A stretch of DNA of 64,000 nt from Vibrio tubiashii ATCC 19109 (GTDB lineage Bacteria; Pseudomonadota; Gammaproteobacteria; Enterobacterales; Vibrionaceae), in contig NZ_CP009354.1 in the NCBI RefSeq assembly GCF_000772105.1, forward strand, positions 496,001 to 560,000. The letters run 5' to 3'. Made by a program: the position numbers and the translations under genes. The notes below the pieces were generated by a model. The model was not told where the DNA came from and ran no database searches. It worked only from the letters and a program-made list of their open reading frames with translations. Below, one piece after another: positions 43,338-45,450 of the stretch; the first letter of the stretch is position 1, and every line of letters begins with the position of its first letter.

Positions 43338-43649
43338 ATGCAAAAAAGTCAGTTAGATAAGTGGATACATGGTCATCATAAAGACAGCTATCAACCACCA
43401 AAGGTGTTTGTGATTGGCTGTTCAGACTTATCCCAGTATCTATTAGCCGTTGAATATAAGCACAAAATAGAGCCAATAAAGATTGATGATGAGCCCGTGC
43501 ACTTCGACTCGCTAGAGCTAGTCAAAGAGGAGTTACTGAGACTGGGTGTGGAACGAGCATACTTACGTTTACATAACGCTTATGATGAATGTGGTGCGAG
43601 TGACGGCCCTCTGTATCATGATGTGGAGCTATCGCTTACCACGCACTAA
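43338..43649 (+). CDS. Conserved hypothetical protein (possibly DUF6482)
   Basis: A 103-residue soluble protein with no signal peptide or membrane helix. GGAGGTGA before the ATG is a strong ribosome binding site. It resembles small conserved proteins of marine gammaproteobacteria that I would place in DUF6482 (segments [18 protein letters not shown] and [15 protein letters not shown]), but this is from memory and uncertain. Its TAA overlaps the mutH TAG on the other strand by 3 bp. Confidence 0.7.
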
Positions 43650-44311
43650 ACATAATGGTTTTCAAGAATACGCGCTGTGAATTGAGTTCTTAAATAGAAT
43701 CCTCTTGGCAGCGTTTTTATTGGTTTACCGCTTGCTCCATAGGCTTCGGTCAAAACTCGGCTATTCGCCGCTTTAGGTCGTAGCTGCAAAACCTCACCAT
43801 GACGAGCGTTAATTTGCTCGACTCGACCTAGTACGATGAGTTCCATCAGCTCTTCCCAGTCAGCTTTAAGTTGTTGCTCTTCTTCGATGCTTGGCGACCA
43901 GATCAAAGGTGAACCGACGCAACGCTGCGCTAATGGGATCTCCCTTTCGCCTTCTACTGGAATCCACAACACTCGGGAAAGTTTATTGCGAACATGGCTT
44001 GTTTCCCAAGTGAGACCATGAACGCCAATCAGTGGTGCGACACAAACAAAGGTCGTTTCTAATGGTTTTCCTGAGTACCCAATTGGAATGGTTTTTAGCT
44101 CGATTCCCAGCTTCTCAAAGTCTTGAGTCGGTTTACTGCCTGCCGTTGCCCCTAAGTGCCATTCTAATAGCTGTCCAACCCAGCCTTTATCACGACGAAG
44201 ATCCGGTGGAACTTCGATCTCGGCTTCCTCTGCTAGATCGGCAAAGCTAACACCTGCGATGCTTTTTGCTCGTTCAAGCAGTTCTTGTTCTGTGGTCGGT
44301 TCTGGCTTCAT
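43646..44311 (-). CDS. mutH: DNA mismatch repair endonuclease MutH
   Basis: A 221-residue endonuclease that nicks the unmethylated strand at hemimethylated GATC. The catalytic D-E-K residues are D64, E71 and K73 ([12 protein letters not shown]). Length and motifs match E. coli MutH, which implies Dam-directed repair in this organism. It is divergent from rppH across a 620-bp gap, far more than a promoter pair needs. Confidence 0.96.
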
Positions 44312-44931
44312 TGGTATTGCAACAGTGTGGAAAGTGGGCTCATTGTAACTCAGTGAAAGAAAATTACGACTGTAGAGAGAATGATCGTTATGAGTAAAAG
44401 ATCATCAATTAAAAGGTTATCCACAGCCTAGTTGGAGAAACTTGCCAATTGGCGATGGTGTGTATGAATAAACAGGGGTTTTGGGGTGAAAAAATACTTG
44501 AAATTTTAGTCATATAGTTAGGTTTAACTTATGTGGTGTGGATAAAATCAACTATGGTTGATCTTTGACCGATCTGTGTTTGTTGATAGAAATGCTTCTA
44601 TGATACAAACTATTTAAATTTATTTTTATCATAATTCATTGTTTTTATTGAATTTAATATGTCTTGATTTGATCTTCTTGCTGCCCCAAAGTATGAGTTG
44701 GTTAGCTATTGATCACTTTCACATTGATTCTTCACATAGTTATGCACAGAAAAGGTGAATAAATGTGGTCTATGTCTCACTGCAGTGTGAGTAACCTCGA
44801 ATTTGATTAAAAGTTATCCATTGGAGGATGTGAAAGCAATATTTTCTGCCCTAGTCACACTAGTAAGTTTGCTCCTACTGGGGATATGTGGAAAAATCAC
44901 TGTAATTAAAGATTTTATTTGAGGTTGGCCA
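44312..44931. promoter_or_regulatory. DnaA-box cluster, candidate DARS2-like locus
   Basis: This 620-bp gene-free stretch holds three perfect TTATNCACA boxes: 44417-44425 (+, TTATCCACA), 44537-44545 (-, TGTGGATAA) and 44740-44748 (+, TTATGCACA). One-mismatch boxes lie at 44459-44467 and 44887-44895. Six GATC sites lie between 44383 and 44714, and an AT-rich tract at 44595-44665. By chance about 0.02 perfect boxes are expected. E. coli DARS2, which recharges DnaA with ATP, lies beside mutH, so the same role is inferred. It also carries the mutH and rppH promoters. Confidence 0.55.
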
Positions 44932-45450
44932 GTGATAGATGGCGATGGTTACCGCTTAAATGTGGGAATTGTAATCTGTAACAGCCATGGTCAGGTCTTC
45001 TGGGCTAAACGATACGGACAACACTCTTGGCAGTTCCCTCAAGGTGGAATTGATGAAGGTGAAACCCCTGAACAGGCAATGTATAGGGAGTTGTATGAAG
45101 AGGTTGGTCTTACAAAGAAAGACGTAAAGATCGTTGCGACAAGTCGTCATTGGTTAAGATATAAGCTACCAAAGCGCCTTGTTCGTTGGGATTCAAAACC
45201 TGTTTGTATCGGTCAGAAACAGAAATGGTTTCTGCTGCGACTCGATTGTGATGAATCACGAATTGATATGTTGCGTGGCAGTTCCCCTGAGTTTGATGGT
45301 TGGCGTTGGGTAAGCTATTGGTATCCAGTCAGACAAGTGGTTTCTTTTAAGCGTGATGTTTATCGTCGCGCAATGAAAGAGTTTGCATCAATGGCGATGC
45401 CATTTAAACAGCGTAAAGTAAAAGGCAAACGTAAGCACCGAAGAGGATAG
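44932..45450 (+). CDS. rppH: RNA pyrophosphohydrolase RppH
   Basis: A 172-residue Nudix enzyme that removes pyrophosphate from mRNA 5' ends and opens them to RNase E. The Nudix box [20 protein letters not shown] is complete, and the KLPKRLVRW and [14 protein letters not shown] blocks match E. coli. The start is GTG 44932 ([12 protein letters not shown]), with GAGGT about 8 nt upstream. The Lys/Arg-rich tail is typical. ptsP follows 2 bp after the stop, the first step of the rppH-ptsP-TSUP-lgt-thyA run. Confidence 0.96.

Follow-up and report, generated by a model that had tools for sequence, protein, structure and literature searches.

The 620-bp gap between mutH and rppH in the stretch of Vibrio DNA analysed here (64 kb, the window) appears to be the Vibrio orthologue of E. 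coli DARS2 and would recharge the initiator DnaA. From sequence comparison we put the probability of this reading at roughly 0.93. The gap is bordered by a mutH reading frame on the minus strand (43646-44311) and an rppH frame on the plus strand (44932-45450), both named by homology to annotated E. coli genes. A preliminary description of this DNA had proposed a DARS2-type site from its box content and its place beside mutH. Both the E. coli site and the gap in the window indeed lie between rppH and mutH, and the proposal gains from the core spacing, from accessory elements that follow in the same order with similar distances between them and from a core that is widespread in Vibrionaceae. The features, read from rppH towards mutH, are as follows.

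44312-44931, minus strand: putative DARS2 region, the whole mutH-rppH gap (620 bp, 66% A+T), aligned to the E. coli rppH-mutH gap.
44887-44895, minus strand: rppH-proximal box, TTTTCCACA, strong in Vibrionaceae and degenerate in Enterobacterales.
44786-44794, minus strand: accessory low-affinity box, TTACTCACA, whose start lies 32 bp ahead of that of the core.
44728-44762, minus strand: predicted DARS2 core with boxes I-II-III, 30/35 identical to E. coli, ungapped.
44754-44762, minus strand: core box I, TTATTCACC, letters identical in E. coli, one mismatch to the consensus in 21/21 Vibrio rows.
44740-44748, plus strand: core box II, TTATGCACA, a perfect TTWTNCACA in 20/21 Vibrio rows.
44728-44736, plus strand: core box III, TTCTTCACA, 3 bp from box II.
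44632-44644, minus strand: candidate IHF site, AAACAATGAATTA, one mismatch to WATCAANNNNTTR, 118 bp from the core start.
44555-44570, minus strand: conserved putative Fis/GATC block, GGTCAAAGATCAACCA, of which AAAGATCAACCA is letter-identical in E. coli.
44537-44545, minus strand: DnaA box, TTATCCACA, 9 bp past AAAGATCAACCA as in E. coli, perfect in 20/21 Vibrio rows.
44461-44475, minus strand: conserved block, CTGTTTATTCATACA, averaging 0.91 identity across the 21 Vibrio rows.
44417-44425, plus strand: outer DnaA box, TTATCCACA, invariant in 21/21 Vibrio rows.

The DARS2 core of E. coli is described in passages of PMC8682772 and PMC4245941 as three DnaA boxes, of which I and II stand head-to-head. 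The core found in the window has the same organization. Its 30 identities in 35 positions compare with a best value of 23/35 in 300 simulated gaps, and a BLAST comparison of the two complete gaps gave an E value of 9e-9. Read in the same direction, both gaps contain TTATTCACC-TTTTC-TGTGNATAN-NNN-TGTGAAGAA. Box II, the third perfect box of the preliminary description, faces box I across a 5-bp spacer, and boxes III and II together correspond to the 'double DnaA box' given for E. coli DARS2 in a ChIP-seq table of PMC11317965 (TTCTTCACA-act-CTATCCACA, 3-bp spacer). The earlier statement that the box spacing departs from the compact E. coli core was thus mistaken, as the core is present with the same box order and spacing. 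It was overlooked because only perfect boxes had been compared, and in both species boxes I and III are each one mismatch away from the consensus.

Several elements around the core recur at fixed distances. The accessory low-affinity box, TTATNNACA with at most one mismatch, is found at -31/-32 in 21/21 Vibrio, 11/13 other Vibrionaceae and all 22 core-bearing Enterobacterales; its E. coli version is TTATAAACA at -32. The distance from the core to the Fis block is 195-199 bp in the 21 Vibrio gaps, 197-200 bp in the 13 other Vibrionaceae and 188-190 bp in the 22 Enterobacterales. The outer box lies 138-140 bp from where the Fis block starts in the 21 Vibrio as well as in the 22 Enterobacterales, and CTGTTTATTCATACA has an E. 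coli counterpart, CTGTAAATGGAAACA, at an identical offset. The named blocks make up 103 of the 620 columns of the 21-row Vibrio alignment and hold 69 of the 96 invariant ones (the non-box blocks were picked after viewing the alignment). The remaining columns have a mean identity of 0.51.

The predicted positions of IHF and Fis are consensus matches and not published footprint letters. A match to the Fis consensus (up to one mismatch) falls on the Fis block in 15/21 Vibrio and 9/13 other Vibrionaceae, and the block is degenerate, with up to seven mismatches, in a few of the latter 13. The commonest Fis-consensus matches of Enterobacterales are at offsets other than that of Vibrio. A Fis homologue with 83% identity is encoded in the genome to which the window belongs. 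Placement of the IHF site at +118 is uncertain. An IHF-like match was found at +117 to +119 in 10 of 21 Vibrio, a count inflated by shared descent, and was absent there in the other 11; the best of 100 simulations reached 3. A competing position near -153 on the other strand occurs in 8/21 Vibrio. Among the 22 Enterobacterales the commonest offset was +211 to +213 (12 gaps), and four had a match near +109. The window has its best match at +118, E. coli at +109. With +118 as the true position, the IHF site would have shifted outward from the core by roughly one turn of the helix. As reported in passages of PMC4245941, E. coli IHF sites moved by 5 bp in either direction were only partly effective, and those moved by 10 bp were moderately effective when shifted away from the core and partly effective when shifted toward it.

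Two GATCs 11 bp apart surround the Fis block (44560-44574, GATCGGTCAAAGATC on the minus strand). Judged by eye, both are kept in 12/21 Vibrio rows; E. coli has only the second. A role of the pair as a SeqA or Dam-timing input is possible.

The alignment of the gap across Vibrio and Escherichia, proposed in the preliminary description as a check, supports the identification. Among the best 80 of 590 candidate rppH-homologue loci, 35 were from Vibrionaceae, and all 33 with a complete gap contained the core inside it at no more than four mismatches, in addition to the 30/35 agreement with E. coli. The two loci left out of the gap counts were cut by contig ends (L004 and L026), and L026 still showed the core with one mismatch. 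The core was found in 21 of 27 enteric loci. The other six had neither mutH beside rppH nor the core within the fetched stretch; they come from Providencia (three loci), Morganella, Photorhabdus and Arsenophonus (L043, L045, L046, L054, L062, L065). None of the 18 Alteromonadales-type loci had the core at up to six mismatches. All nine Pseudoalteromonas loci examined, of ten, keep two inverted boxes offset by 14 bp, of which the first often has a single mismatch, suggesting that the rppH-mutH gaps of this genus hold a divergent DARS2-like core. In these loci (L041, L044, L047, L048, L049, L052, L061, L063, L064) the spacer letters differ and the third box is degenerate.

In whole genomes of Vibrionaceae, the core at up to three mismatches was present in 229 of 247, with one match each, and absent at this threshold from 18; a reversed-pattern control gave 0 matches. 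A class-wide search, in a sample with few close relatives, found the core in 2/369 genomes including that of the window, and three genomes of this sample marked as 'same order' had no core match.

A cluster of DnaA boxes could also act in the manner of datA, soaking up DnaA or promoting ATP hydrolysis instead of recharging the initiator. The preliminary description had named titration as its alternative. Chromosomal titration of DnaA is reported for E. coli in parts of PMC12371093, and the boxes outside the core are of high affinity and conserved. The head-to-head arrangement of boxes I and II and its spacing are, however, the feature that defines DARS, and they are conserved, which weakens the alternative and leaves it very improbable as a full account of the gap. 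Some titration may accompany recharging because the boxes bind DnaA in any case.

Equally improbable is that the boxes serve transcription only, as parts of a DnaA-regulated promoter of rppH or mutH. What speaks for such a promoter is the rppH-proximal box, which lies 37 bp from the start of rppH within the conserved string TTTTTCCACATATCCCC and is a perfect TTWTNCACA in 20/21 Vibrio and 10/13 other Vibrionaceae but in 0/22 Enterobacterales. It might link rppH expression to DnaA. Conserved blocks are nevertheless spread across most of the gap, with a spacing close to that of E. coli over more than 300 bp, and the last 100 bp on the mutH side are little conserved. A consensus scan for sigma-70-like promoters at 44250-45000 found none where shuffles averaged 2.8, which is weak evidence in the same direction. 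No terminator-like sites were found in the gap.

With respect to box content, the three perfect TTATNCACA boxes of the preliminary description are present at 44417 (plus), 44537 (minus) and 44740 (plus), and its six GATC sites and AT-rich composition were confirmed by a count of six and by the 66% A+T given above. Its two one-mismatch boxes were too few, as the gap holds six such TTATNCACA sites (44459, 44463, 44728, 44754, 44786 and 44887), of which 44887 is perfect under TT[A/T]TNCACA. Outside the gap, the window has one further perfect TTATNCACA. This total of 4 is ordinary against the 2.89 expected per window in shuffles, and thus the clustering of the boxes, not their number, stands out. 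Across the genome the box is not enriched (147 matches vs 135 for the backwards pattern). Least likely is that the boxes clustered by accident, or that a structured RNA is encoded, in a gap whose AT-rich composition makes boxes somewhat likelier: first-order simulations with the gap's own composition averaged 0.07 perfect boxes and gave at least three in 0/20,000 gaps, which speaks against chance as the source of the cluster, the site is conserved across a family, and an Rfam search of the gap, with no match up to E = 1, led us to reject an Rfam RNA.

Among the chromosome-1 matches listed, inspected by eye, at least three perfect boxes per approximately 750 bp occurred only in the mutH-rppH gap and at 3,286,962-3,287,695. 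The latter cluster is probably oriC since it adjoins frames tentatively identified by eye as gidA and mioC. Apparently the genome comprises two chromosomes; its contig C2 (1.77 Mb) opens with frames taken for parA and parB. The box letters and spacing of the core, with at most one mismatch, match exactly two places in the 5.54-Mb genome, the DARS2 core and a counterpart of DARS1. The DARS1 counterpart (L084, C1:2375113-2375142) is located 414 bp upstream of uvrB, compared with 419 bp for E. coli DARS1, and 27 of its 35 bases are identical to the E. coli site. If C1 is a closed circle and replication begins at the probable oriC, DARS2 and DARS1 lie at 33% and 55% of the replichore; the corresponding E. 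coli values, for an assumed oriC coordinate, are 41% and 66%. A search for plasmid-borne copies of the gap gave no match. At C1:1175826-1175848 of the same genome there is a perfect inverted TTATCCACA pair with a 14-bp offset, where the three-box pattern does not match.

Anatomy, spacing and conservation of the site are direct observations, onto which the protein-binding and nucleotide-exchange steps described for E. coli DARS2 in passages of PMC8682772 and PMC4245941 can be projected by analogy. ADP-DnaA would occupy the head-to-head boxes I and II as a pair, and box III would take up another protomer. IHF would bend the DNA between the core and the Fis block, possibly near 44638, and Fis would bind near 44562. 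Together, IHF and Fis would bring the complex to an ADP-releasing state, and the resulting apo-DnaA would take up ATP to provide more active initiator for the oriC of chromosome 1. ATP-DnaA assembling on the box beside the Fis site may subsequently expel Fis and thereby inactivate the site, as in E. coli. By the same analogy, the Vibrio site would stimulate initiation; multicopy DARS2 raises initiation in E. coli, as stated in a passage of PMC4245941.

The three-box geometry has a second, different match in one genus of Vibrionaceae, among the matches listed. This single-copy element, TTATCCACARAANNTGTGNATAASTCTGTGGGAAA, combines the DARS box geometry (TTATCCACA-N5-TGTGNATAA-N3-TGTGGGAAA) with a partly conserved right-hand module. 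It was found in 49 of 244 genomes, one match each, all from one genus that we take to be Photobacterium (49/52), and in 0/192 other Vibrionaceae; the three genomes of the genus that lack it comprise two incomplete ones and one given as complete. In Photobacterium sp. GJ3, for instance, it is located at NZ_CP073579.1:592883-593019 in a record of 1,690,710 bp. In 17 of 18 genomes, chosen mostly for large contigs, the element shares its contig with a homologue of the chromosome-2 ParB of the window's genome; the eighteenth assembly is broken into 80 pieces. In the same genomes, the best uvrB match and DARS2 reside on contigs other than that of the element. The element lies at 0.63-0.91 of the half-contig distance from parB and is oriented with the fork in 16/17, figures to be read with several contigs possibly not closed and an agreement inflated by shared descent. 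A DARS1-like geometry (up to two mismatches) within 700 bp upstream of uvrB was found in 11/18 Photobacterium genomes.

The gene neighbours of the element vary between species groups (eight loci), and one of 19 copies overlaps the end of a 443-aa reading frame. The copies on Photobacterium-type contigs include loci L091-L098 and L120-L130. An RNA hairpin formed by the inverted boxes is disfavoured, as none of 19 copies has the pairing G at the wobble position of box II. Six of the first eight Photobacterium loci were compared with Rfam, and none of the six had a hit at gathering score. The crtS site lies near xseA/der, and no close match to the right-hand module was found in the xseA/der region (best 8 mismatches of 31 positions). 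Among the titles and abstract openings listed in a literature search, none mentioned a site of this kind, either for Photobacterium or for any secondary chromosome.

We tentatively raise the possibility that Photobacterium has a recharging system on both chromosomes, with DARS2 on chromosome 1 and, in nearly every species, an extra three-box site on chromosome 2, some 0.6-0.9 of the distance between ori2 and the point opposite it. The arrangement of the boxes and their contig would be compatible with it, and on balance we consider it doubtful; the element might instead serve titration or be part of a promoter. If the site does recharge DnaA, a source of ATP-DnaA would be doubled by the late replication of chromosome 2, and chromosome 1 would thereby receive a feedback signal opposite in direction to that of crtS. 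The look-alike opens such a return signal from the second chromosome to the first to direct testing. For the mutH-rppH gap itself, the analysis provides a base-level map of the putative Vibrio recharging site, with the boxes, spacers and accessory sites common to Vibrio and enteric bacteria, and it marks the strong rppH-proximal box and the GATC pair as features not shared with E. coli.

The closest known system is E. coli DARS2 in the rppH-mutH gap (NC_000913.3, near 2,969,130). The two sites are alike in gene neighbours, core sequence and core spacing, the accessory box at -32, the AAAGATCAACCA-N9-TTATCCACA arrangement, the outer TTATCCACA box and the order of the elements. The window differs in that its Fis block is 6 bp further from the core (5-9 bp across the 21 Vibrio), its best IHF-like match is 9 bp further from the core, the rppH-proximal box is strong, and no perfect counterpart exists for the TTTTTCACA that adjoins the outer box in E. 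coli. The datA site promotes ATP hydrolysis on DnaA and is located at glyVXY-queG and not at mutH-rppH. By its description in passages of PMC8682772, on which our comparison is based, datA resembles the site in the window as a box cluster with an IHF site but acts in the opposite direction. DARS1, in the bioD-uvrB gap of E. coli, has the same three-box geometry as the DARS2 site of the window but a different place and different flanks; in E. coli it is independent of IHF and Fis, according to a passage of PMC8682772. DARS-like sequences at the same places in V. cholerae were attributed to Fujimitsu 2009 in a passage of PMC6090056, and V. cholerae is included in a DARS2 comparison according to the legend of Figure 8 in PMC8682772. 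By these descriptions, which stand here for the alignment itself, another Vibrio has a DARS2-like sequence at the same locus. Thus, the site in the window would be a further member of a known group, to which the present study adds a family-wide map of the spacing and the strong rppH-proximal box.
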